Source: a virus. From it: 37,777 bases of DNA. The position numbers and the translations under genes were made by a program. The notes under the pieces are model-generated. The model did no database searches, had not been told where the DNA came from, and saw only the letters and a list, made by a program, of their open reading frames with translations. The DNA lies in the IMG/VR virus record IMGVR_UViG_3300042890_001471, positions 1-37,777 of that record; one strand, written 5' to 3'. Of the stretch, positions 8,100 through 33,067 are shown piece by piece (within the stretch, counting starts at the first letter, position 1; every line of letters begins with the position of its first letter).

Positions 8100-9770
8100 A
8101 TGTCAGGAATATTATCAATGATTGCAGGGGGCACGTACAGTTCGGCCCCAGTTAACACGGTAGCACCAGTTGTATCTGGTACTGCAACAAGGGGTCAGAC
8201 TTTGTCCTCTACTACTGGTACCTGGACAGGTAAGCCAGATCCCACATTTGCATATCAATGGCAGCGGGCAGGGTCTAATATTGGCGGTGCAACATCCAGT
8301 ACATACGTATTAGTATCTGCAGACGTTGGAAATGCAATTCGATGTGTGGTAACTGCCACCAACGTTGTAGCGGCTGTCTCTGCTAACTCAAATGCCACAG
8401 CTGCAGTAGCAGGCCTTGTTGCAGGAGCACCAACTATTGGTACAGCAACTGCTGTAACTGCAACATCAGCTACTGTAGATTTTACTGCACCTGCAGACAA
8501 TGGTGGTTTAACTATTACAAGCTACACTGCTACCTCTTCACCTAGTGGTATTACTGGTACATTAAGTCAATCAGGGTCAGGAACTATTACAGTATCTGGT
8601 TTGGCAACTGATACTGCTTATACATTTACTGTAACAGCTACCAATTCTGCAGGCACCAGCGCTGCCAGCGCTTCAAGTAACAGTGTAACACCTATTGTAT
8701 CAGGTGCTCTCTGGTCATGGGGAAGAAACGTTCATGGTCAACTTGGTAATAATACTTCAACCTACTTTGGCTTTACAACTGGCACCTCTAGCCCCATACA
8801 AGTTGGCTCTGACACGAATTGGAAATCTGCAAAAGCAGGTAGATACAGCAGCTTTGCTGTCAGAACCACTGGAACTTTGTGGTCATGGGGTCAAAATGAA
8901 TATGGAAAGTTGGGCTTAAATATTCCATCTGCGGACAGAAGAAGTAGCCCAACACAAGTTGGTGGTGATACAAACTGGTTAAGAGTAACAGGGTTTTACA
9001 GCGGTCTTGCTCATAAAACCAATGGAACTTTGTGGTCATTAGGAGGATTCAATGGTAGTGGTCAATTAGGTGATGGAACTTATACAAGTAGATCTTCTCC
9101 GGTGCAAATTGGTTCTGATACTGATTGGGCAACTTCAGATGGCGGTTTTTATAATATGGGTGCTATTAAGACCGGTGGAACATTATATACCTGGGGTCAA
9201 GGTAGTTTTGGCGGACAGGGAAGAGGGGGCAGCAATGATACATCAAACACCCCATTACAAGTTGGGGCATTAACCAATTGGAAAAATGTAGCGGCTGGTA
9301 CATATTGGATGGCTGCTGTTAAAACTGACGGTACTTTGTGGGCATGGGGTAGAAATAATAAATACCAAGTAGCAGGTATTGGGAATGCATCTTTACATAG
9401 ATCAAGCCCGGTACAAATTGGTTCAGATACCAATTGGCTTAAAGTCGCTGCTGGCTATAATAGTCATTTGGCAATTAAAACTAATGGAACATTGTGGATT
9501 ACCGGTGAGTACGATGCTGCACCAAAACAAATTGGTGCTTTAACTAACTGGACGCATGCTGAGCCTACGAAAAATGGCGCTGCAAGATGGAACATTGGAC
9601 GCACTTCCAGTGGTAACTTATATGGGTGGGGAAGTAATACACACGGTCAACTTGGTCTTAATAATGCAACCTATATAGGTCAGTCTGACCCAACAGTTGT
9701 TGGAAGTGATACCAATTGGACAAACCTAACAACCCCTGGCGCACAACATACAGTGGCTATTCGTACTTAA
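8100..9770 (+). CDS. Ig-like / fibronectin III / RCC1 seven-bladed propeller adhesin
   Basis: A 556-residue three-part protein. Residues about 10-104 are a bacterial Ig-like domain (TGTWTGKP, YQWQRAGSNIGGATSSTYVL, RCVVTATN). Residues about 105-200 are a fibronectin type III domain (APTIGTATAVTATSATVDF, TAYTFTVTATNSAGTS). Residues 201-556 contain exactly seven RCC1 repeats, each with a 'LWSWG' strand and an 'SSPVQIGSDTNW' strand. The last blade ends in HTVAIRT and the first begins at GALWSWG, so one blade is completed by both termini, the closure typical of beta-propellers. Ig-like and FN3 domains are common carbohydrate- or surface-binding decorations of phage particles. Role: probable receptor-binding or surface-decorating virion protein. 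A terminator follows. Confidence 0.8.
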   Translation: MSGILSMIAGGTYSSAPVNTVAPVVSGTATRGQTLSSTTGTWTGKPDPTFAYQWQRAGSNIGGATSSTYVLVSADVGNAIRCVVTATNVVAAVSANSNATAAVAGLVAGAPTIGTATAVTATSATVDFTAPADNGGLTITSYTATSSPSGITGTLSQSGSGTITVSGLATDTAYTFTVTATNSAGTSAASASSNSVTPIVSGALWSWGRNVHGQLGNNTSTYFGFTTGTSSPIQVGSDTNWKSAKAGRYSSFAVRTTGTLWSWGQNEYGKLGLNIPSADRRSSPTQVGGDTNWLRVTGFYSGLAHKTNGTLWSLGGFNGSGQLGDGTYTSRSSPVQIGSDTDWATSDGGFYNMGAIKTGGTLYTWGQGSFGGQGRGGSNDTSNTPLQVGALTNWKNVAAGTYWMAAVKTDGTLWAWGRNNKYQVAGIGNASLHRSSPVQIGSDTNWLKVAAGYNSHLAIKTNGTLWITGEYDAAPKQIGALTNWTHAEPTKNGAARWNIGRTSSGNLYGWGSNTHGQLGLNNATYIGQSDPTVVGSDTNWTNLTTPGAQHTVAIRT

Positions 9771-21974: not shown

Positions 21975-24206
21975 ATGCCAAAACGATATGCTGGCGGCAT
22001 TATTACCGCCACCTTTAAGCCACTAGACCCCCATGGTGATCTAACCACCCTCTTTATCGTTGGTGCAGAGCTCGACGGTGCTATGGGATTAAACGAGGGT
22101 TTTACTGTTTATCGATCAAGCCCGGTCCAAATTGGTGCTAGTACAGATTGGTATAGAGGTTATGCCGGTCCACTATCAATCCGAGCAGGTGCTATTAAAC
22201 AAAATGGTACTATGTGGGTGTGGGGTAATAGTGAAAATGGGCAACTTGGCCTTAACAACGTTGTTCAAAAATCAAGCCCTACACAGGTTGGAGCTTTGAC
22301 TACTTGGTCTCATATGGTTGTAAGGAAAAATACCAGTCTAGCCATAAAAACCGATGGGTCACTATGGACTTGGGGCGCCAGTAACCATGGCCAACTCGGA
22401 TCTAATACTCTTACATACAGATCAAGCCCGGTTCAGGTTGGTAATACCCCTGCAGCAGCCACCTCATGGTCAGAAGTTGCTGAGGGTATGGGTTATCATA
22501 CAGCGATTATTGGAACTGATAGTAGTTTATGGACTTTTGGATACAATGACTACGGACAGTTAGGTCATACTAATACTGTAAGTCGCTCAAGCCCTGTACA
22601 AGTTGGTACAGATACCAATTGGTCTGCAGTATCTACTGGTGGAAGTTTTACTTTAGCTATTAAATCAGGAGCATTATGGGGTTGGGGGGATGGAACTATC
22701 CCTGATAATAGTTATTCGAGTAGGTCTAGCCCAATACAAATTGGTTCTTTAACTAACTGGTCTAAAATTGCTGCTGGTCCGGCTTTTGGTGCAGCCGTTA
22801 AGACGGATGGTTCGTTGTGGACCTGGGGTACTAATTACATGGGTACATTAGGACTAAACTTGGGGTACGCTGCAGATAAATCTAGTCCTACTCAAGTTGG
22901 GGGACTGTACACATGGGCATCAGTCGCGGCGGGCCGCAAGCAAACTTTCGCCGTTAAGACAGACGGAACCTTGTGGGCTTTTGGATACAACAACTACGGT
23001 CAATTAGGTAATAACTCAATTGCAAATACCTCTAGCCCAGTTCAGATTGGTTCAGATACTAATTGGTCTAAAGTCAATGCAGGTTATTTTACTACTTTTG
23101 CAATCAAGACAAATGGAACGATGTGGAGTTGGGGCCGAAATGACGACGGTCAGTTAGGTCAAAATAATCTAACAAATATATCTAGTCCAGTTCAAATTGG
23201 TTCTTTATCCACCTGGTCAAATATTGCCGGCAATTATTCGACTGTAGCTACCAAAAATGATGGTACGCTTTGGAGTTGGAGCAGCAATGATCAGGGTAAC
23301 TTAGGTCTCGGTGATACAGTGCCTAGATCTAGCCCAGTACAAATTGGTTCAGATACCGATTGGTCAAAACTTGGTAGTAATCTTAAAACAAACGCAGCTA
23401 TCAATACAGCTGGTGAGCTCTACATTTTTGGAGATAATGAATACGGGCAGTTAGGTATTAATTCTGTGGCTGATGCGTCTAGCCCTACCCAAGTTGGTGC
23501 TCAGATTTATGGATGGATTGATGCTGATGTTGGAGGGGATCATATAGGTGCTATTAGAGCCGATGGTACCTTATGGACATGGGGACGAGCTCAAGCCGGG
23601 CAGACTGGTCAAAATACTGGTGCACCTACTCCTATTCAAAGATCTAGCCCAGTACAAGTTGGTACAGATACCAATTGGTTAAAAATTAAAAATCAAAGAA
23701 ATGGTATGATGGCCATTAAAACTGATGGTACCCTCTGGGCTTGGGGATACCAGGATCAGGGTCAACTTGGTGACAATAGTACGATACCTAGATCATCACC
23801 TGTACAAATCGGGGCATTAACTGATTGGTCTCTTATTTCTTCTGGTGATTATATGCAGCATGCTATTAGAACCAATGGTACCCTATATGGTTGGGGAAGA
23901 AATAACTCCAACGCGACATCTATTGGCGATAATACCAGAGTAGACAGATCCAGTCCAGTTCAAATTGGTTCAGATACTTGGTCTACGGTTGCAACCGGGA
24001 TGCACATAGCTTCCGCAATTAAGACAAATGGTACTCTCTGGGCTTGGGGTGCAGCTGCCACATCAGGTGCTACAGGACAAAATGATAGAATAGATCGATC
24101 CAGCCCGGTCCAAATTGGTACTAATACTAACTGGATTTCAACGGCTGTTGGTGGTAGTACTGAGGGTACCCAATTTATATTAGCTACAGCTAACACACCA
24201 TTCTAA
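21975..24206 (+). CDS. RCC1-repeat protein with 14 repeats (double propeller)
   Basis: A 743-residue protein that is almost all RCC1 repeats of about 50 residues. I count 14 occurrences of the signature 'SSP(V/T/I)Q(I/V)G...W', alternating with 'KTDGTLWxWG' strands and GQLG turns. Fourteen repeats suggest two seven-bladed propellers in tandem. The first repeat is preceded by about 40 residues that lack the canonical LWSWG strand (LTTLFIVGAELDGAMGLNEG). There is no signal peptide. RCC1-fold proteins bind other proteins or ligands; in this tail-fibre setting a receptor-binding or particle-decorating role is inferred. DNA around the repeats is similar enough to permit recombination between blades and between the RCC1 genes. 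Confidence 0.8.
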   Translation: MPKRYAGGIITATFKPLDPHGDLTTLFIVGAELDGAMGLNEGFTVYRSSPVQIGASTDWYRGYAGPLSIRAGAIKQNGTMWVWGNSENGQLGLNNVVQKSSPTQVGALTTWSHMVVRKNTSLAIKTDGSLWTWGASNHGQLGSNTLTYRSSPVQVGNTPAAATSWSEVAEGMGYHTAIIGTDSSLWTFGYNDYGQLGHTNTVSRSSPVQVGTDTNWSAVSTGGSFTLAIKSGALWGWGDGTIPDNSYSSRSSPIQIGSLTNWSKIAAGPAFGAAVKTDGSLWTWGTNYMGTLGLNLGYAADKSSPTQVGGLYTWASVAAGRKQTFAVKTDGTLWAFGYNNYGQLGNNSIANTSSPVQIGSDTNWSKVNAGYFTTFAIKTNGTMWSWGRNDDGQLGQNNLTNISSPVQIGSLSTWSNIAGNYSTVATKNDGTLWSWSSNDQGNLGLGDTVPRSSPVQIGSDTDWSKLGSNLKTNAAINTAGELYIFGDNEYGQLGINSVADASSPTQVGAQIYGWIDADVGGDHIGAIRADGTLWTWGRAQAGQTGQNTGAPTPIQRSSPVQVGTDTNWLKIKNQRNGMMAIKTDGTLWAWGYQDQGQLGDNSTIPRSSPVQIGALTDWSLISSGDYMQHAIRTNGTLYGWGRNNSNATSIGDNTRVDRSSPVQIGSDTWSTVATGMHIASAIKTNGTLWAWGAAATSGATGQNDRIDRSSPVQIGTNTNWISTAVGGSTEGTQFILATANTPF

Positions 24207-24243: not shown

Positions 24244-25428
24244 ATGCCATTAGGTAAGCAATATGCGGGAATGTGGACCCTATCCCAACAACTACAGGCG
24301 GTAAGCGGTAGAACCTGGACTGGGATCCCTGCAGTACCAAGTATGTGGGCTTGGGGAAGAGGTCAAGATGGGCAACTTGGTATTAACGCAGTAGGATTTA
24401 GATCCAGCCCTGTACAAGTAGATTCTGGCATTTCTTGGCCTAGGATTGCTGCAGTTGAGTTTGCTGGCGGCATTAAAGGTGATGGTACCCTTTGGATGTG
24501 GGGTGATGGTGTTTCCGGTCATATGGGGAATAATAGTATAGCACCCAGGTCAAGCCCGACCCAGGTTGGAACCGATACAGATTGGGCAGCTATTAACGTT
24601 GGTGCCTCTTTTATAGGTGCTGTTAAAACCAACGGAACAGCGTGGGTATGGGGTCAAAATAACGCTGGATACTTAGGTCTTAATAATACTATTGGAGCCG
24701 GTCGATCTAGCCCGACACAGCTCGGAGCACTAACTAATTGGGTTAAAATACAGTTTTTCTCAAATAGCGCGGTCGCTTTAAAAACCGATGGTACTCTTTG
24801 GTCATGGGGTCACAATCCTAATGGTCAATTGGGGACTAATAATACTGTTTATAGATCCAGCCCTGTTCAAATAGGTTCAGATACTGACTGGTCAAATATT
24901 GCTGGTTCCTTTTCATCCCCTATAGCTCAAAAAACTAATGGTGCGATTTATTCATGGGGTTCCAATGGCGGGGGTAATTTAGGTCTTAATACATCTGATG
25001 GAGCTCATAAGTCAAGCCCGACTCAGATTGGATCCGCTACAGATTGGATTTTAGCTGAAAACGCTCTAAGTTCAGGTAAATCTAATTTACTTCGTAAAAC
25101 TAATGGTACACTTTGGGGGTTTGGATATAACAACTATGGTATGCTTGGTGCTATCAGTGTTGTTCAAATTTCAAGTCCTGTACAAATTGGAGCATTAACA
25201 ACATGGTCAAGCGTGGCTGTAACTAGTAATACCGGTCTTGCAGTTAAAACGGATGGTACTTTGTGGGCATCAGGAAACGGTGCAGACTATGGCCAATTGG
25301 GTAATAATCTGAGTGGAGCAACCAACTATCGATCAAGTCCGGTTCAAATTGGAACAGGTACTCAATGGACCGATGTTTATGCCGGTTTTCAAACCGTATA
25401 CGCTATTCAAGAAATACCTGGTACATAA
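24244..25428 (+). CDS. RCC1-repeat seven-bladed propeller protein, 394 aa
   Basis: Preceded by a TCGGAGTC ribosome binding region. After about 35 residues (LGKQYAGMWTLSQQLQAVSG) there are seven RCC1 repeats marked by seven SSPxQ...W signatures (SWPRI, TDWAAI, TNWVKI, TDWSNI, TDWILA, TTWSSV, TQWTDV) and ending in QTVYAIQE. One closed propeller is expected. The N-terminal lead resembles that of the 424-aa RCC1 protein at 27702 (GIWTISEAAAKKQQN), so both may attach by the same short segment. Last gene before the enzyme island. Confidence 0.8.
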   Translation: MPLGKQYAGMWTLSQQLQAVSGRTWTGIPAVPSMWAWGRGQDGQLGINAVGFRSSPVQVDSGISWPRIAAVEFAGGIKGDGTLWMWGDGVSGHMGNNSIAPRSSPTQVGTDTDWAAINVGASFIGAVKTNGTAWVWGQNNAGYLGLNNTIGAGRSSPTQLGALTNWVKIQFFSNSAVALKTDGTLWSWGHNPNGQLGTNNTVYRSSPVQIGSDTDWSNIAGSFSSPIAQKTNGAIYSWGSNGGGNLGLNTSDGAHKSSPTQIGSATDWILAENALSSGKSNLLRKTNGTLWGFGYNNYGMLGAISVVQISSPVQIGALTTWSSVAVTSNTGLAVKTDGTLWASGNGADYGQLGNNLSGATNYRSSPVQIGTGTQWTDVYAGFQTVYAIQEIPGT

Positions 25429-25484: not shown

Positions 25485-27254
25485 ATGAAAAATATTTACT
25501 TCCTTGCCGGGCTTCCCCGTTCTGGTTCCACCCTTCTTGCAGCCATCCTTAATCAACACCCCTCCGTCCATGCCACAGCCACATCAGGTTTACTAGATGT
25601 GCTGGTTGGTACTTTGAAGGCGTGGAAAGAAAGTGCTACGGTTCAATCGGTCTTTGATGAAAAAGAAAATCAAGATGAGTTACAGCGTATCTTAAGAAAT
25701 ATTTGTCAAACAAAATACGAAAAAATTAATAAGCCTATTATTATTGATAAAGCCAGGGGTTGGTCTTCTGATATTAATATACCAACCATGACAAATGTGT
25801 TGGGGTACAGACCAAAGATAATTGCTACGGTTCGTAACATTCCAGATTGTGCGGCGTCATTTGTAAGAATTGCTAAACCAAAAGACAAGTATGAATTTTT
25901 AAGATCTGATCAATTTATTGCTCACATTAAAGAATCCTATCAAACGCTTCAAACAGGCTTTGTATATGCTCCAGATTCTATTTTATTTGTTGACTATGAC
26001 GACCTTATGCAGGATCCTGGTAAGCAACTAGACCGTATTCATGAATTTCTAGACTTACCCGATCATCAGTATGATTTTAATAATCTGGATGGTACTAATT
26101 TAAGAGAAAAAGATGAAGAGATTTGGGATGTTAAAGGTCTTCACGACGTTAAACCTAAATTAGGGTACCAGCACAAAGAAGACCCTAAAGACGTTTTAGG
26201 TTATATGTACAATAACTTTGTTCAGCCTAGATTTTGGCTGAATGAGAGAGTAGCACCTGGACCTATCCATAAACTAGATCTTCAGTTGGCAGCCGGATTG
26301 GTGGGTAATTTTGAAGAAGGTTTAAGATTAGCTAATGAACTTGAAGTAGAAGAACCGTGGAACAATCGTGCAGCCTTTAATCGGGGATGGTATAGGTTAC
26401 GCGAAGATAAGTTACTTGAAGGTGAACAGTTATTATACCGTGGTCGTATTGAATCAGTATTTGGTAATCCTAAACCCAGTACTCCTACCCCAGAATGGGA
26501 TGGGGTATCAAAAGGTACCGTGATGCTGTGTCTTGAAGGGGGATTAGGAGATCAAATCCACGGTGCAAGATATGCCGAATACATAATGGAAAAAGGATGT
26601 GATGTAATTATTGCATGCTCGGGCCCAATAGCTACTTTACTTAGAAAAATTAAAGGTGTGAAGGCCGTAATACAGCATGAAGCAGTTTTCGGGGTAGTAC
26701 ATGATTACTGGACTCCATCTATGTCAACTGTAGTACCTTTAAAACTAGAATACAAAGATATTAAAGGTGCAGCTTATATAAATAAACCAGATGTGGAACC
26801 TCATTATGGAATGAGAATTGGTATCAGGTGGCAAGGTAGTACTGTTTTTGAACATGAGCAGCATAGACTTTTTCCACCAGAGCTAATGTTCAATGCATTG
26901 AAGGGAACTAATGCAGAGTTTATTTCTTTACAAAGAGATGATGGCGCAGAATTTTGTCCTAGTTGGGTCAAAACAGTTCCACTAAATACATGGGAAGATA
27001 CAAGAAATGCAATTGCTTCTTGTGATTTAGTGATTAGTTCGTGTACATCGGTTGCGCATTTATCTGCTGCAATGGGGGTACAGACTTGGATTGCCGTGCC
27101 TATTTTGCCTTACTATTTGTGGGCTAAAGAGGGTGATACAAGTCCTTGGTATGATAGTGTGACTTTGTTTAGGCAGGAAGCATTTGGAGATTGGACTGGT
27201 CCTTTCGAAAAGATTAATTTAAAACTTGCAGAGATGCAAAGAAAACAAGCATAG
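25485..27254 (+). CDS. Sulfotransferase fused to a GT9-like glycosyltransferase domain
   Basis: A 589-residue fusion. Residues 1-253 are a PAPS-dependent sulfotransferase: FLAGLPRSGSTLLAAIL gives the 5'-phosphosulfate loop (PRSGST, 11-16), and IIATVRNIPDCAASF (113-126) corresponds to the 3'-phosphate-binding Arg...Ser region. Residues about 265-340 are a helical TPR-like linker ending in PTPEWDG. Residues 345-589 match the C-terminal domain of TPR-linked GT9/heptosyltransferase-like proteins (EGGLGDQIHGARYAEY, RIGIRWQGSTVFEHEQHR, LVISSCTSVAHLSAAMG, SPWYDSVTLFRQ, GDWTGP). It would be a cytoplasmic enzyme that transfers a sugar and sulfates the acceptor or a nearby glycan. The substrate is unknown. 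There is no clear Shine-Dalgarno; a sigma70-type promoter precedes it. A second, shorter paralogue of the first domain lies at 32309. Confidence 0.85.
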   Translation: MKNIYFLAGLPRSGSTLLAAILNQHPSVHATATSGLLDVLVGTLKAWKESATVQSVFDEKENQDELQRILRNICQTKYEKINKPIIIDKARGWSSDINIPTMTNVLGYRPKIIATVRNIPDCAASFVRIAKPKDKYEFLRSDQFIAHIKESYQTLQTGFVYAPDSILFVDYDDLMQDPGKQLDRIHEFLDLPDHQYDFNNLDGTNLREKDEEIWDVKGLHDVKPKLGYQHKEDPKDVLGYMYNNFVQPRFWLNERVAPGPIHKLDLQLAAGLVGNFEEGLRLANELEVEEPWNNRAAFNRGWYRLREDKLLEGEQLLYRGRIESVFGNPKPSTPTPEWDGVSKGTVMLCLEGGLGDQIHGARYAEYIMEKGCDVIIACSGPIATLLRKIKGVKAVIQHEAVFGVVHDYWTPSMSTVVPLKLEYKDIKGAAYINKPDVEPHYGMRIGIRWQGSTVFEHEQHRLFPPELMFNALKGTNAEFISLQRDDGAEFCPSWVKTVPLNTWEDTRNAIASCDLVISSCTSVAHLSAAMGVQTWIAVPILPYYLWAKEGDTSPWYDSVTLFRQEAFGDWTGPFEKINLKLAEMQRKQA

Positions 27255-27701: not shown

Positions 27702-28976
27702 ATGTCCGATTTTCCAGGTAAACTAATAACTAAAACCCCTATTACCACCGTAGGTCCTACGGATGGTGAAGGGGGCTCGGCGTCTGGGATATGGACTATA
27801 TCTGAGGCGGCTGCTAAAAAACAACAGAACCTTTGGCCAGCAAGAACCTTAAGTAGATTTCTTTATGCTTGGGGTGTGGCTGATGTGAGGGGGATAAGCG
27901 ATGAAGGTACACCTCGTTCAAGTCCAGTTCAAGTTGGTACAGAAGGAACATGGCAAAAGATTGCAATGGGGTGGAAAAGTGTAGCAGCTATAAAAAGTGA
28001 CGGTACTTTGTGGAGATGGGGTCTAAATACCTCTGGTGAATTAGGTATTGATTCAAGAGTTGATAAATCCAGTCCAGTTCAAGTAGGTGCACTGACTAAC
28101 TGGGCTAACATAGCTTCTTCTGGTTGCTCTGTAGGAAAAGATGCTTTTGCTGCTGTAAAGACGGATGGAACACTCTGGGCAATGGGTGCAGGTTCTATGG
28201 TGCCTGATAATACCGGGGTAAGTAGGTCTAGCCCAGTACAGATTGGTTCGGGTACTAACTGGTCAAATGCATTTGGAAGTCATGGTTATGGAAATCCCAT
28301 GGGGATGTGGGCAATCAAGACAGATGGTACACTATGGGGATGGGGTCGTCAAAATAACGGTAGTATAGGTAATGGTTATGTCAATGTCGGTTATAACGCA
28401 GCGCCTTTATCTAGTCCAGTTCAAATTGGGTCAGATACAAACTGGTTAAAGGTTTGTGGGGGCTATTACAAGGGTATTGCTTTAAAAACCAATGGCCAGA
28501 TCTGGGGTTGGGGTACTGGTGGTAACGGGCAAAATGAAACACAGTCAGGCATTAACGGTAATACCCCTGCACAGTTAGGGGCGCTATCTACATGGGTGGA
28601 TTTAGGTGTGGGTTCAACTCATGCTCATGCTATTAATACTGCAGGTGAATTGTATGGTTGGGGTAGAAATGCTGATAGATATGGTTCAGGAGCCGGTCAA
28701 TTAGGTGATAACACTACTACTAATCGAACTGCACCTGTAAAAATCGGTACTGATACAAACTGGTCAAGAGTATTTACAGGTGGTTATCATACTAGTTCAT
28801 TATTTAAAAGAACTGATAATACATTATGGTTTTCCGGTGTTGGCATTGGCGCTAGTAGTTCGCCGCAAGTAAAAGTTTCAAGCCCGGTTCAAGTAAATAG
28901 TACATCTGATTGGGATGTAGCTGGATGTAGTGGGCATGGAGATAATCCAGGTGTAGTAGCTACTCGAAAAGTTTAA
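27702..28976 (+). CDS. RCC1-repeat seven-bladed propeller protein, 424 aa
   Basis: It starts 7 bp after the preceding stop. The first 50 residues (KLITKTPITTVGPTDGEGGS, then GIWTISEAAAKKQQ) are followed by seven RCC1 repeats: TWQKI, TNWANI, TNWSNA, TNWLKV, STWVDL, TNWSRV and SDWDVA. Repeats 5 and 6 have degenerate SSP signatures (NTPAQ, RTAPV). It is inside the enzyme island, surrounded by glycosyltransferase and sulfotransferase genes, and it is the only structural-type protein there besides the small unknown gene. That makes it the nearest candidate substrate of those enzymes (inference). Confidence 0.8.
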   Translation: MSDFPGKLITKTPITTVGPTDGEGGSASGIWTISEAAAKKQQNLWPARTLSRFLYAWGVADVRGISDEGTPRSSPVQVGTEGTWQKIAMGWKSVAAIKSDGTLWRWGLNTSGELGIDSRVDKSSPVQVGALTNWANIASSGCSVGKDAFAAVKTDGTLWAMGAGSMVPDNTGVSRSSPVQIGSGTNWSNAFGSHGYGNPMGMWAIKTDGTLWGWGRQNNGSIGNGYVNVGYNAAPLSSPVQIGSDTNWLKVCGGYYKGIALKTNGQIWGWGTGGNGQNETQSGINGNTPAQLGALSTWVDLGVGSTHAHAINTAGELYGWGRNADRYGSGAGQLGDNTTTNRTAPVKIGTDTNWSRVFTGGYHTSSLFKRTDNTLWFSGVGIGASSSPQVKVSSPVQVNSTSDWDVAGCSGHGDNPGVVATRKV

Positions 28977-28992
28977 ATTTAAATACTATATT

Positions 28993-29706
28993 ATGAAATC
29001 ATTGTTTTTTTCGTACAACACAAGAGTTGATAAAGCTTATATTATCAGGGTCAAGGGTAACAAGAACTCAGAAGACCAGGCCTTGAGGTGTGCAGCTACT
29101 TGTAATCAGGTAAAGATGCCATTTCAATTCTGGGATGCCTATAATGGTATATCTGATGAAATTGTTACCCCTACTCATCATAATGCAGTTATGAATATGA
29201 TTAAGGTAACTGATCATTATTTAACCAGAGGTGAGGTAGCATGCGCCCTGTCTCATATTAGTCTCTGGGCTAAATGTGTTGAGCAAGATCAACCATTGGT
29301 TATTCTTGAACATGATGCCTTAATGCTTGCACCATATGTACAACATGCGGTGTTTAACTCTATAGCATATCTTGGTTCTAACGAACAAGTCAAACAAGGT
29401 TGGGGTGTTTATCCCACACCTCCTCATGCCTCTGAAGGCCCCAACTACCACTTCATCTGTCGAGCACATGCATACGGTATAGACCCTGCTGTAGCAAAGA
29501 ATATGCTTGCCCATGTTATTAAGTACGGCATATGTGCACCTTTAGATATTATTCTTAGAGCAGACATATTTCCTATTCATCAAATGGGCGTATTTGCGTA
29601 TGATATAAAAGAGCGCGTGCCTGATACTGGTGAACTTAATACAACTATTTTAGGACGGCCGATAGAAGGTCGGAAAACTGATAGAAATGACAGCTTGACG
29701 GTTTAA
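28993..29706 (+). CDS. GT25-family glycosyltransferase
   Basis: A 237-residue protein. DKAYIIRVKGNKNSEDQALR opens the domain, and LTRGEVACALSHISLWAKCV (78-96) is the GT25 hallmark (GE-AC-SH-W). VILEHDALM (103-111) occupies the place of the usual EDD metal-binding motif, here Glu106-His107-Asp108. The family transfers galactose or related sugars to lipooligosaccharide or protein acceptors in the cytoplasm. The length is typical. The His in the EDD position is unusual and may alter metal binding. It opens a run of sugar genes (GT25, GT2, Glf) with 8-bp or negative spacing. No late promoter is visible before it. Confidence 0.8.
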   Translation: MKSLFFSYNTRVDKAYIIRVKGNKNSEDQALRCAATCNQVKMPFQFWDAYNGISDEIVTPTHHNAVMNMIKVTDHYLTRGEVACALSHISLWAKCVEQDQPLVILEHDALMLAPYVQHAVFNSIAYLGSNEQVKQGWGVYPTPPHASEGPNYHFICRAHAYGIDPAVAKNMLAHVIKYGICAPLDIILRADIFPIHQMGVFAYDIKERVPDTGELNTTILGRPIEGRKTDRNDSLTV

Positions 29707-29714
29707 ATTTTTAT

Positions 29715-30548
29715 ATGCTGCATATCGTCTTACGAACTTGTGATAGACACTCACTGGTATCTACTAGAATTGTTAATAAAAAAGAATGTATATTAAGATG
29801 TTTAAATTCTATTTTAACAAATTTAGAATCTATTGATGATAAATCTCTACATATTATAGATGATAACTCATCTGACGATTTTAAGAGTAAACTTAACTCT
29901 ATCGTTGAACATCAACCGTTCGTAACTGTTAATTATCTGCCTGAACGAGATCAGACAGGGCTATCAGCTAAAAAGAAATCTAGATACTCTGTACAAGTTG
30001 CGTATGAATATATCTATAATTTACCAGATGATGATTTAGTTTATGTAGTAGAAGATGATTACCTACATTTTCCTAATGCTATACGGGAGATGGTAGATAC
30101 ATGGAACTACTTTACAAAATTTATACAAACTAACATTGGTATTTTTCCCCAAGACTTTAATCAGCTACACCTACACCCATCCTTTCCTCATAATGAAACA
30201 TATTTTCAGTCAAGTTTTGTAGTACCCTCTTATCAAAGATATTATAAAACAACGTGGTTTACACAAGAATCTTTTATGATTCAGTCTAAACTATTTAAGC
30301 AATATAAAACTGAGTTTGATAGTTTATTAAAAATTGGAGAGGATCCATCTTGCTGGGAAGGTAATACAATATCATCTGTCTGGAATAAACCTGATGTAAA
30401 GATGTTTATGCCTCTTGGCTCTCTGGTTGTACATATGTCAGATAAAGCAGATATACCTTTCTTTATTAGTAAGGAACAAGTAATTAATTTATGGAACGAA
30501 AATCAAACCTCTTGGTCGTCGGAACAGGATTCTCAGGTTCAGTTATAG
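29715..30548 (+). CDS. GT2-like (GT-A fold) glycosyltransferase
   Basis: A 277-residue protein. LHIVLRTCDRHSL opens the fold. HIIDDNSSDDF (46-56) is the nucleotide-binding DDxS-type motif, and VYVVEDDYLHFP (109-120) gives the metal-binding DxD-type site. WFTQESFMI and GEDPSCWEGNTISSVW later in the chain may bind the acceptor. It transfers a nucleotide-activated sugar, possibly the UDP-galactofuranose made by the enzyme encoded next. Its last 58 bp overlap the start of the mutase gene in another frame, which points to tight co-expression. The substrate is not known. Confidence 0.75.
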   Translation: MLHIVLRTCDRHSLVSTRIVNKKECILRCLNSILTNLESIDDKSLHIIDDNSSDDFKSKLNSIVEHQPFVTVNYLPERDQTGLSAKKKSRYSVQVAYEYIYNLPDDDLVYVVEDDYLHFPNAIREMVDTWNYFTKFIQTNIGIFPQDFNQLHLHPSFPHNETYFQSSFVVPSYQRYYKTTWFTQESFMIQSKLFKQYKTEFDSLLKIGEDPSCWEGNTISSVWNKPDVKMFMPLGSLVVHMSDKADIPFFISKEQVINLWNENQTSWSSEQDSQVQL

Positions 30549-31483
30549 CTCGTGAATTAGCTGACAACGGATTCAATGTCACTATTATTGATAAGAGATC
30601 GCATATAGGCGGTAATTGTTTTGATGAAATGGTAAATGGAGTGAGAGTTCATAAGTATGGACCCCATCTCTTCCACACCAACAATACCAAAGTAGTTGAT
30701 TGGTTATCTAGATTTACAGAGTGGGTTGAGTATAAGCACAAGGTTAAAGCTTATTATAACGGTAAATTTTTAACTCTGCCTCCCAATCAACATACCCAGA
30801 CCGTTCTTGGCGATAAGTTATTCGATGTCGTATATGCACCTTACACATTAAAAATGTGGGGTACTTTAGATATAGATAGCAAAGTCTTAGATAGATTAAA
30901 GATACGTAATGATGATAATGAGTTTTATTTTCCAAATGACTCATTTCAATACTTACCTAAAGATGGGTATACCAAAGTTTTCGAGAATATACTTAATCAT
31001 TCAAATATTAAAGTCTTATTAAATACTGACTATAATAAAGATTTAGAATCTCAATACGATAGAGTTTTTAATTCAATGGCTATAGATGAGTATTATGACT
31101 ATTGTTACGGTGAATTACCTTATCGGTCTATTAAGTTTCATCATAGGTCAAGTAACGACTTTACAATGCCTACCCCGGTAGTTAACTTTACCGATAACAA
31201 CATCTATACAAGAATAACCAAATGGGAGTTGTTTCCTAATCACGGTTCAGGTGAGCATTATACACTAGAAGAACCGTGTGATTACAAAGAAAACAATTAC
31301 GAAAGATACTACCCTGTTAAAGATGTTGATAGTATCAATAGAGTAGTGTATAATAAGTATAAGTCACTAGACAATAATAAAGTTACGTTTATTGGACGGT
31401 GTGGTTTGTATACATATCTTGATATGGACATGGCTATTGCAAGTTCTTTATCAATTGCAAATCAATTTTTTAACTCTAACTGA
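30491..31483 (+). CDS. glf: UDP-galactopyranose mutase
   Basis: A 330-residue flavoenzyme that converts UDP-galactopyranose to UDP-galactofuranose. The FAD-binding GTGFSGSVIARELAD (11-25) is followed by the acidic strand end and RSHIGGN (36-42). HKYGPHLFHT (54-63), the characteristic flavin-contact segment, is intact. Later motifs also match the family: PNDSFQYLPKDGYTKVFENI, YRSIKFHHR, VVNFTDNNIYTRITKWE, YYPVKDVDS and FIGRCGLYTYLDMDMAI. It is slightly shorter than the usual 365-390 residues. The AAGGAA box is about 14 bp from the start and lies inside the upstream GT2 gene. Galactofuranose is a cell-surface sugar in bacteria, so this gene ties the island to glycan synthesis. Confidence 0.95.
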   Translation: MERKSNLLVVGTGFSGSVIARELADNGFNVTIIDKRSHIGGNCFDEMVNGVRVHKYGPHLFHTNNTKVVDWLSRFTEWVEYKHKVKAYYNGKFLTLPPNQHTQTVLGDKLFDVVYAPYTLKMWGTLDIDSKVLDRLKIRNDDNEFYFPNDSFQYLPKDGYTKVFENILNHSNIKVLLNTDYNKDLESQYDRVFNSMAIDEYYDYCYGELPYRSIKFHHRSSNDFTMPTPVVNFTDNNIYTRITKWELFPNHGSGEHYTLEEPCDYKENNYERYYPVKDVDSINRVVYNKYKSLDNNKVTFIGRCGLYTYLDMDMAIASSLSIANQFFNSN

Positions 31484-31492
31484 GGGTATATT

Positions 31493-32281
31493 ATGAAGCG
31501 AATTTTAATCATGGGTCTTCCTGGTGCTGGTAAGACATATCTTGCTCAACACATTCTTGAACATCTCCAAAACGATCGTAAAACAGTCATGTGGCTTAAC
31601 GCCGATGATGTTCGTAAGAAGTACAATGACTGGGACTTTAGTAAAGAAGGTCGTATCAGGCAGAGTCTTCGAATGAGAGAGCTTGCCGACAGCTACGATA
31701 CTGATTTCGTTATTTGTGACTTTGTAGCTCCCCTCCCAGAGATGCGTCATAACTTTAAAGCCGATTGGACGGTCTGGGTCGATACTATTGAGAAGGGTCG
31801 ATTTGAAGATACTAATAAAGCCTTCACACCTCCTGAGTTTTATGACTTTAGAATCACCGAACAACAAGGGGAAAAGTGGGGTGAGTTTATTGCCGCCCAC
31901 ATTCTAGATGAAAGACGTAGACCAACGTTTAACTGGCAGAAAGAAACCGTTCAGATGCTTGGAAGATGGCAGCCATGGCATGAAGGTCATAGAGCGTTGT
32001 TTGAGCGTGCATTAGCTAAGACCGGTCAAGTGGTTATTCAGATTAGAGACTGTCAGGGATGGCAGGGTTCTAACCCCTTTGCTATTGAACAGGTTAAGAA
32101 CTATATTCGTAGAGATTTAGATCCTATGTTCCAAGGTCAATACGAAATTCAGGTAGTACCTAACATTGTTAATATTACCTACGGTAGAGATGTAGGGTAT
32201 AAGATCGAACAGGAAGTGTTCGATGATGCTATTCATTCTGTATCTGCTACTAAGATTAGAAAGAAAATGGGTCTTGAGTAA
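31493..32281 (+). CDS. APS-kinase-like kinase fused to an HxGH nucleotidyltransferase
   Basis: A 262-residue bifunctional protein with GAGGGT as ribosome binding site. Residues 1-145 are a P-loop kinase resembling adenylylsulfate kinase: GLPGAGKT (8-15), WLNADDVRKKY (34-44, place of LDGDNVR), DFSKEGRIRQSLRMRELAD, VICDFVAPLPEMR (73-85) and VWVDTIEKGRFEDT. Residues 150-262 are an adenylyl/cytidylyltransferase-fold domain: GRWQPWHEGH (157-166), NITYGRDVGY (227-236) and SVSATKIRKKM (249-259). If the kinase makes PAPS from APS, it would feed the two sulfotransferases flanking it. The transferase half is much shorter than ATP sulfurylase and looks closer to NadM/NMNAT or cytidylyltransferases, so making APS is only a possibility. 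Both halves have intact motifs. Confidence 0.8.
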   Translation: MKRILIMGLPGAGKTYLAQHILEHLQNDRKTVMWLNADDVRKKYNDWDFSKEGRIRQSLRMRELADSYDTDFVICDFVAPLPEMRHNFKADWTVWVDTIEKGRFEDTNKAFTPPEFYDFRITEQQGEKWGEFIAAHILDERRRPTFNWQKETVQMLGRWQPWHEGHRALFERALAKTGQVVIQIRDCQGWQGSNPFAIEQVKNYIRRDLDPMFQGQYEIQVVPNIVNITYGRDVGYKIEQEVFDDAIHSVSATKIRKKMGLE

Positions 32282-32308: not shown

Positions 32309-33067
32309 ATGAAAAAAACTTTGCATTTTTTAAGTGGAATTCCTCGATCAGGTTCAACCGTTCTAGCAGCTATTCTAAACCAGAACCCTACAATGCATGT
32401 TTCAACGACTTCCGGGCTCGTCTTTGCACTTGATGGATTAGCAACTACATGGCATTCAACGGGTCTTCTCGACAAGAATGATCCCTCGCGAAATAAACTA
32501 GCTCAAACTATGAGAGGTGCAATTGATGCATTCTATGAACATACAGATAGACCTATTATTATAGATAAGTCTAGAGGGTGGCCGATTGTAGCAATTATTG
32601 AAGCCATGGTTCAGGTATTAAATCGTCAGCCAAAGATTATCGCTACCGTTCGTTCGATACCAGATTGCGCTGCATCTTTTGTACGTTTAGCCAAGCCTAA
32701 GGATTTAGACGATTTTATGAGTACTAGTCCATATATTGAACATCTCGAAGCAGCCTATAATGCACTACAAGACGGATACAAATTTGCTCCAGAAAACTTT
32801 TTGTTCGTTGAATATGAAAATTTATTAGCTGAACCTAAAATTCAATTAGATAGAGTTCATAAATTCTTAAATCTCCCAGAATTTAAATATGATTTTAATA
32901 ATATTGATGGTTCAAGTGTAGCCGAAGATGATGAGACCCTCCATGGTAGCTCCGGTATGCATGATGTAAAACCTGTTTTAGCTCCTCAGCATAAGCAAGA
33001 TCCTAAAGAACTTTTAAAGCAGTATTATTCAGAATTTCTTCAACCAGAATTTTGGCTTAAATCTTAA
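32309..33067 (+). CDS. Stand-alone sulfotransferase
   Basis: A 252-residue PAPS-dependent sulfotransferase, paralogous to the first domain of the fusion at 25485 along its whole length: FLSGIPRSGSTVLAAILNQ (PRSGST, 12-17), RPIIIDKSRGW, IIATVRSIPDCAASFVRLAK, QLDRVHKFLNLPEFKYDFNN, and the end QPEFWLKS, which matches the point where the fusion's sulfotransferase domain stops. It lacks the glycosyltransferase part. A weak TTGAGT-N18-TATAAA lies immediately upstream but would leave no leader. It is the last gene before the terminator and the gp13 promoter, and the neighbour of the APS-kinase-like fusion. Confidence 0.85.
   Translation: MKKTLHFLSGIPRSGSTVLAAILNQNPTMHVSTTSGLVFALDGLATTWHSTGLLDKNDPSRNKLAQTMRGAIDAFYEHTDRPIIIDKSRGWPIVAIIEAMVQVLNRQPKIIATVRSIPDCAASFVRLAKPKDLDDFMSTSPYIEHLEAAYNALQDGYKFAPENFLFVEYENLLAEPKIQLDRVHKFLNLPEFKYDFNNIDGSSVAEDDETLHGSSGMHDVKPVLAPQHKQDPKELLKQYYSEFLQPEFWLKS

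Follow-up and report, generated by a model that had tools for sequence, protein, structure and literature searches.

A kinase-nucleotidyltransferase fusion in marine-type phages as a candidate compact PAPS synthetase, with a mini HxGH domain also found in SAR11 apr operons

The window, by which we mean the whole 37,777-nucleotide stretch of viral DNA that was analysed (positions 1 to 37,777 of IMG/VR record IMGVR_UViG_3300042890_001471), is a fragment of a contractile-tailed, marine-type bacteriophage. Beyond the locus described here, it encodes head-closure and tail-sheath-stabiliser proteins and a terminase large subunit. The gene under study is an uninterrupted open reading frame of 262 amino acids that begins with ATG and has exactly the boundaries given in the initial annotation. 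A sulfotransferase gene lies downstream, whereas the upstream genes encode a UDP-galactopyranose mutase, two glycosyltransferases and a protein with another sulfotransferase domain, in the following arrangement.

25485-27254, plus strand: second protein with an N-terminal sulfotransferase domain, 589 aa (PF13469, 1.9e-19)
28993-29706, plus strand: glycosyltransferase family 25 (PF01755, 4.2e-17)
29715-30548, plus strand: glycosyltransferase family 2 (PF00535, 6.5e-07)
30491-31483, plus strand: UDP-galactopyranose mutase (PF03275, 2e-43)
31493-32281, plus strand: bifunctional kinase-nucleotidyltransferase, proposed compact PAPS synthetase, 262 aa (AlphaFold2 mean pLDDT 91)
32309-33067, plus strand: sulfotransferase, 252 aa, likely PAPS user (PF13469, 7.8e-15; PF00685, 1.2e-10)

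The last of these, with its PF13469 match, is the adjacent sulfotransferase to which the initial annotation had drawn attention. We infer that the UDP-galactopyranose mutase is a possible source of the glycan for sulfation.

Residues 4 to 90 of the 262-aa protein match APS_kinase (PF01583) with an E value of 4e-10, above the curated cut-off, and residues 157 to 185 match CTP_transf_like (PF01467) with an E value of 5e-4, just below it. The whole protein also matches phrog_10255 ("kinase") at 2e-51, and a single scan confirmed at least 594 relatives in viral contigs, so the open reading frame is a genuine member of a large family of phage proteins rather than a chance one. Its closest viral relatives (L001 to L004), at ~100% identity, supply no independent evidence.

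The kinase half carries the following features.

31493-31918, plus strand: APS-kinase-like domain, residues 1-142 (by VIA-align, Foldseek and PF01583)
31514-31537, plus strand: P-loop GLPGAGKT, residues 8-15 (G8, G13 and K14 invariant in 55 relatives)
31598-31615, plus strand: NADDVR, residues 36-41, the equivalent of the APS-kinase DGD-x-x-R (D38 and R41 invariant)

As modelled by AlphaFold2, the first half of the phage protein has an APS-kinase fold. Its best VIA-align match has a Z score of 18.8 (2.2 Å over 142 residues), and the top 30 rows comprise only APS kinases, PAPS synthetases and the fungal ATP sulfurylase domain that is related to APS kinase, with gluconate kinase next at a Z of 14.9. 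All of the top 48 Foldseek chains likewise come from APS kinases, PAPS synthetases or domains related to APS kinase. The initial annotation had called the kinase substrate uncertain, given NADD where APS kinases have DGDN. This doubt stems mostly from comparing motifs that were not aligned. Set against the haloarchaeal DGDYLR, NADDVR retains D38, the Asp in third position, and R41, and the sole change is of the first Asp to N36, a position at which the relatives DLP_6 and AhaSv have Asp. The same alignment with haloarchaeal APS kinase shows that F49, R54, R60, F77, P80 and R85 are kept and that Asn is replaced by Gln57, such that the canonical D-x-D, R, F, R, R, F and P equivalents are all retained in the phage enzyme bar that first Asp. 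D38, R41, F49, R54, Q57, R60, F77 and P80 show no variation across 55 diverse relatives, and we take D38, R41, F49, R54 and Gln57 to correspond to the APS-binding Asp, Arg, Phe, Arg and Asn of canonical kinases (1M7G-type structures).

Whereas the fold, the P-loop, D-x-x-R and the F/R/R/F/P equivalents are common to CysC (PF01583, TIGR00455) and the phage kinase, the phage and SAR11 kinases differ from CysC in having a shortened lid (FTGID-PFE in APS kinase), Gln in place of the canonical Asn, and scores below the apsK cut-off. The window protein reaches 29.2 bits against the 138.7 demanded by TIGR00455, and the phage and SAR11 forms lie at 29 to 40.

The second half is described by four features.

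31946-32278, plus strand: mini HxGH nucleotidyltransferase domain, residues 152-262, proposed minimal ATP sulfurylase (PF01467; NadM/NMNAT by profile; fold search of the stand-alone SAR11 version)
31961-31990, plus strand: GRWQPWHEGH, ATP-binding HxGH motif, residues 157-166 (R, Q, P, H, G and H invariant)
32180-32200, plus strand: YGRDVGY, family-specific motif, residues 230-236 (G, R, V and G invariant in 50 sequences; kept in haloarchaea)
32243-32260, plus strand: SATKIR, second ATP-binding motif of HxGH transferases, residues 251-256 (S, T and R invariant)

With a length of ~110 residues and the motifs GRWQPWHEGH and SATKIR, this domain is as the initial annotation portrayed it. It has what defines the HxGH superfamily, namely invariant HxGH and S-x-T-x-I-R motifs and a Rossmann-like fold. 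A resemblance to NMN adenylyltransferases, also suggested there, is supported by a profile search in which the NMN adenylyltransferase MJ0541 (NadM) is closest (E 1.7e-9), and by hhalign of the two, with a probability of 97.5%; for the latter, the MJ0541 sequence was entered by hand and matches the stretches displayed in the profile search. The phage transferase has GRxQPxHxGH, NPF and S-x-T-x-I-R in common with NadM (MJ0541, 1f9a; NadM-Nudix 2qjt), but is ~35 to 40 residues shorter. In the profile alignment, nothing clearly corresponds to the NadM segment that separates the NPF region from the S-x-T motif and includes the MJ0541 stretches IWVSYV and VYSGNP. This middle segment forms the nicotinamide-ribose side of NadM. 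In addition, the phage domain has its own R185 and GRxVGY, unlike NadM, and the window protein misses the NadM cut-off of TIGR01527 (24.3 versus 181.2 bits). The transferase half derives from the NadM neighbourhood of the HxGH superfamily but is no NadM member.

Structural comparison of the two halves had been proposed as a check. The kinase half matches APS kinases and PAPS synthetases, as described above. The transferase was modelled in its stand-alone SAR11 form (129 aa, pLDDT 90), and the model aligns in VIA-align with phosphopantetheine (CoaD) and NMN adenylyltransferases at Z scores of 11.2 to 9.7, and not with ATP sulfurylase, which does not appear among the Foldseek and VIA-align rows listed for this model; that is no proof of absence. 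PF01747, the canonical ATP sulfurylase family, is not among the best 25 of the 36 families matched by the window protein (E <= 1), nor among the matches listed for the stand-alone SAR11 transferase. Judged by its own sequence, with NadM nearest, the transferase half would lean towards an NAD-related role.

Residues common to the mini domain from phage and haloarchaea are R158, Q160, H163, H166, R185, NP194-195, GRxVGY (231-236), S251, T253 and R256. Among these, R185 and G231-R232-x-V-G-Y are both family-specific and invariant, and we infer from this conservation that they are a candidate sulfate site. A shortened NMNAT that accepts sulfate would, we infer, be chemically simple, because NMNAT and phosphopantetheine enzymes attack ATP with a phosphate, and sulfate has the same shape.

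The mini domain is not confined to phages. On haloarchaeal plasmids, the same mini transferase is fused to the C terminus of an APS kinase that scores above the apsK cut-off (147.8 versus 138.7 bits), and a sulfotransferase lies one or two genes from the fusion. A sulfotransferase is found directly 5' of the kinase in a phage-like region of a Rhodoferax plasmid, and a sulfotransferase match lies ~1 kb upstream of the fusion in Microvirga; the transferase half looks eroded in both. Stand-alone homologues of the kinase are present on Rhizobium, Cupriavidus and Methylosinus plasmids. One further non-SAR11 fusion (L247:1462-2463, minus strand) has an APS-kinase-like LGFSVADRIEQARR, between the canonical and phage forms, and overlaps the start of a gene resembling an adenylate-forming enzyme.

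A genome scan with the transferase alone recovers almost exclusively Pelagibacteraceae among the 80 loci listed. By profile search, only 2 of 398 Pseudomonadota genomes carry the domain, so that within the phylum it is concentrated in SAR11, a group that ranks among the most numerous marine bacteria. Here, the transferase is fused to the kinase, split from it into adjoining genes, or alone. The stand-alone gene (~125 to 129 residues; e.g., L172:3142-3528) heads an operon ~1.4 kb upstream of aprA and is followed by genes for a QmoC-like membrane protein, aprB (TIGR02060, 2.7e-56), aprA (TIGR02061, 9e-299) and a TauE sulfite exporter. Transferase and aprA are no more than 8 kb apart in 32 SAR11 genomes, mostly at 1.39 to 1.42 kb. 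A second SAR11 group (e.g., L229 and L242) has split kinase and transferase genes near a gene that by eye is DmdA-like (DMSP demethylase). A SAR11-type fusion beside a sulfotransferase is also seen on a contig binned as Euryarchaeota (L208, NAT11), likely a binning error.

Across 148 SAR11 genomes, aprA is present in 87 (one partial), the transferase in 99, and canonical Sat in only 9. The transferase occurs in 79 of the 87 genomes with aprA versus 20 of the 61 without (odds ratio 20, Fisher p 9e-14), and the kinase is present in 17 of the latter 20. When genomes with either aprA or the kinase are taken together, the transferase is found in 96/105 versus 3/43 with neither (odds ratio 142, p 8e-24). 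Kinase and sulfotransferase also co-occur in SAR11 (45/70 versus 14/78). As the genomes are related and partly incomplete, and the co-occurrence tests are uncorrected for relatedness, these p-values overstate independence. A closer look at 24 transferase carriers shows that none has CysD, that Sat is absent from 23, and that NadD is above its cut-off in 17.

These observations bear on the possibility that the phage protein is an NAD-type enzyme, that is, a true NMN adenylyltransferase joined to a kinase acting on nicotinamide riboside or NAD, as in NadR with its halves swapped. The nearest solved relatives of the transferase by sequence are indeed NadM/NMNAT, and in Stenotrophomonas phage Bhz60 an NADAR-annotated gene adjoins the fusion upstream. 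Phages carry the NAD salvage enzymes NadM and NadR, and NadR likewise fuses an HxGH adenylyltransferase to a P-loop kinase, a ribosylnicotinamide kinase (PMC9503650). The domain order of NadR is the reverse, however, and the kinase of the phage fusion matches APS kinases, in a context of sulfotransferase or aprBA rather than NadV. We consider an NAD-type enzyme unlikely, given the NMNAT middle segment missing from the alignment, a kinase whose fold and continuity with the haloarchaeal apsK mark it as an APS kinase, the location of the stand-alone transferase in apr operons, and the NadD of 17 of the 24 SAR11 carriers, with which the NMN/NAD step is already covered. The reading of the transferase as an APS rather than an NAD enzyme is thus based on context: APS-kinase structure, the haloarchaeal fusion, the apr operons, co-occurrence with aprA or the kinase, and the lack of ATP sulfurylase in most of the genomes concerned. 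The initial annotation had left two options, a minimal sulfate adenylyltransferase and a nucleotide-sugar or NAD-related activity, and it is the former that gene context favours, with no activity shown.

Linkage to genes for PAPS- or APS-using proteins is thus seen, in sulfotransferase neighbours and the aprBA operon, but not in every phage lineage. In 131 dereplicated viral loci, the density of sulfotransferase matches is 0.157 per kb up to 1 kb from the fusion and 0.00 to 0.02 per kb beyond. A tree of 89 fusions or adjacent pairs shows nine changes of the sulfotransferase neighbour state, with a sulfotransferase adjoining the fusion in the clade of the window, L137/L146, the SAR11-like L208, Microvirga and haloarchaea. 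Among 35 long phage records with the fusion, PF13469 is above cut-off in 7, and the other 28 have no sulfotransferase above the Pfam cut-off; among these 28 are five Stenotrophomonas, Xanthomonas and Clavibacter phage records of 55 to 168 kb. The sulfotransferase linkage is therefore not universal among phage fusions. When representatives of the neighbours in viral loci that lack a sulfotransferase match (105 in all) are scanned against Pfam, no dominant partner family emerges; the varied neighbours include QueD, SAM synthetase and an Fe-S scaffold. Searches of the phage collection with the kinase or the transferase alone add only one weak NadM match.

Several individual neighbours can be described. 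Three proteins (L048:6628-7254, L078:8774-9541 and L123:11423-12079) have no Pfam match but, by eye, sulfotransferase-like P-loop openings, and are possibly divergent sulfotransferases. The NADAR-annotated gene of Bhz60 (L083:7559-8002), directly upstream of the fusion, has equivalents in L081, L085 and L086. Genes annotated as cysteine dioxygenase and MazG-like lie a few kb from the fusion in Bhz60, Clavibacter phage 33 and AhaSv. Queuosine/deazaguanine genes stand beside several fusions (L065:9548-10045, L065:6559-7299, L144:1969-2877 and L094:4750-5259); Pfam identifies a PTPS/QueD-like protein and QueC, and the GTP cyclohydrolase and QueE assignments rest on visual inspection or tallies. 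An extra small P-loop kinase is encoded immediately upstream of the fusion at L106:9561-9998, and in a freshwater-type phage group a second, full-length cytidylyltransferase-like HxGH protein has the same position (L074:263-724).

The many phage loci without a detectable sulfotransferase, and the variety of their neighbours, leave some room for an APS-kinase-like enzyme that phosphorylates the 3'-OH of another nucleotidyl compound made by the transferase, such as an AMP- or CMP-phosphonate, a phosphoramidate or a glycan precursor. The Campylobacter phosphoramidate pathway offers a parallel, in which an APS-kinase homologue acts on a CDP compound. Such a role seems decidedly improbable, as the transferase groups with ATP-using adenylyltransferases, its stand-alone form is partnered with AprAB, which acts on APS, and the kinase tracks the sulfotransferase in SAR11.

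Having observed the domain identity, folds, conservation and gene linkage described above, as well as the absence of canonical ATP sulfurylase, we think it quite likely that the 262-aa phage protein is a compact PAPS synthetase. There is no enzymatic evidence, and the substrates, the direction and the acceptor that is sulfated are inferred. The C-terminal mini HxGH domain would adenylate sulfate (ATP + SO4 -> APS + PPi), with sulfate occupying the place of the acceptor phosphate of NMN and phosphopantetheine adenylyltransferases. The N-terminal domain would then phosphorylate the 3'-OH of APS (APS + ATP -> PAPS + ADP), and the PAPS, the active form of sulfate in cells, would pass to the neighbouring phage sulfotransferases, probably for glycan decoration on the virion or host surface.

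The protein shares with PAPSS1/2 and the bifunctional Sat-APS kinases (Aquifex 2gks) the fusion of an APS-kinase domain to a nucleotidyltransferase. The kinase-then-transferase order is that of PAPSS, as the initial annotation recognised for the animal enzymes, and the kinase fold matches these enzymes at Z 17 to 18. In those enzymes, the ATP sulfurylase half is a much larger PF01747 domain (matched chains of 522 to 590 residues), whereas that of the phage is the NadM-like domain of ~110 residues. Because the canonical ATP sulfurylase domain is missing, the phage protein is a variant rather than a standard member of the PAPS synthetases.

For the mini HxGH domain in general, we think it fairly likely that it represents a third class of ATP sulfurylase, recruited independently of Sat and CysDN and the smallest known, used in SAR11 both to complete sulfite oxidation behind AprAB and for PAPS, and built into a one-piece PAPS synthetase in phages and haloarchaeal plasmids. 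Behind AprAB, the stand-alone SAR11 transferase would run in reverse (APS + PPi -> ATP + sulfate). Most SAR11 are reported to lack ATP sulfurylase although AprAB is present for sulfite oxidation (PMC10356861), and APS must be converted onward for ATP to be gained (PMC5864207). APS turnover in SAR11 is thus an open gap, with AprAB reported and ATP sulfurylase mostly lacking (PMC10356861), and the apr-operon transferase gene, whose product also makes up half of the phage protein, offers a direct candidate for the missing enzyme, and one that can be tested.

The same operon would also suit a transferase that transforms APS without being an ATP sulfurylase (APS + Pi -> ADP + sulfate), the kinase half using APS from elsewhere, and some sulfur oxidisers do have ADP-forming APS phosphorylases. 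This we regard as very unlikely: the ATP-binding HxGH and S-x-T-x-I-R motifs are invariant, and such an enzyme would make no APS in phages and haloarchaea, in which an APS kinase is joined to the domain and a sulfotransferase lies alongside. Least credible is a transferase half that survives only as a relic, degenerate or regulatory, in a protein working as an APS kinase on host APS, as might be suggested by the stand-alone plasmid kinases and the eroded-looking Rhodoferax and Microvirga halves, since the catalytic and family-specific residues of the transferase are invariant across 50 diverse sequences and SAR11 keeps it as a separate gene.

A literature search, with subscription papers outside its scope, found no account of the fusion or of the mini domain as an ATP sulfurylase. 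If the domain is indeed a third ATP sulfurylase class, it would explain how PAPS could be made for sulfotransferases without cysDNC in SAR11 and their phages, and provide a simple marker of sulfate activation in genes whose nearest families are at present nicotinamide-nucleotide and cytidylyltransferases.

Elsewhere in the window, RCC1-type beta-propeller repeats occur in four proteins of one structural region (8100-9770, 21975-24206, 24244-25428 and 27702-28976).
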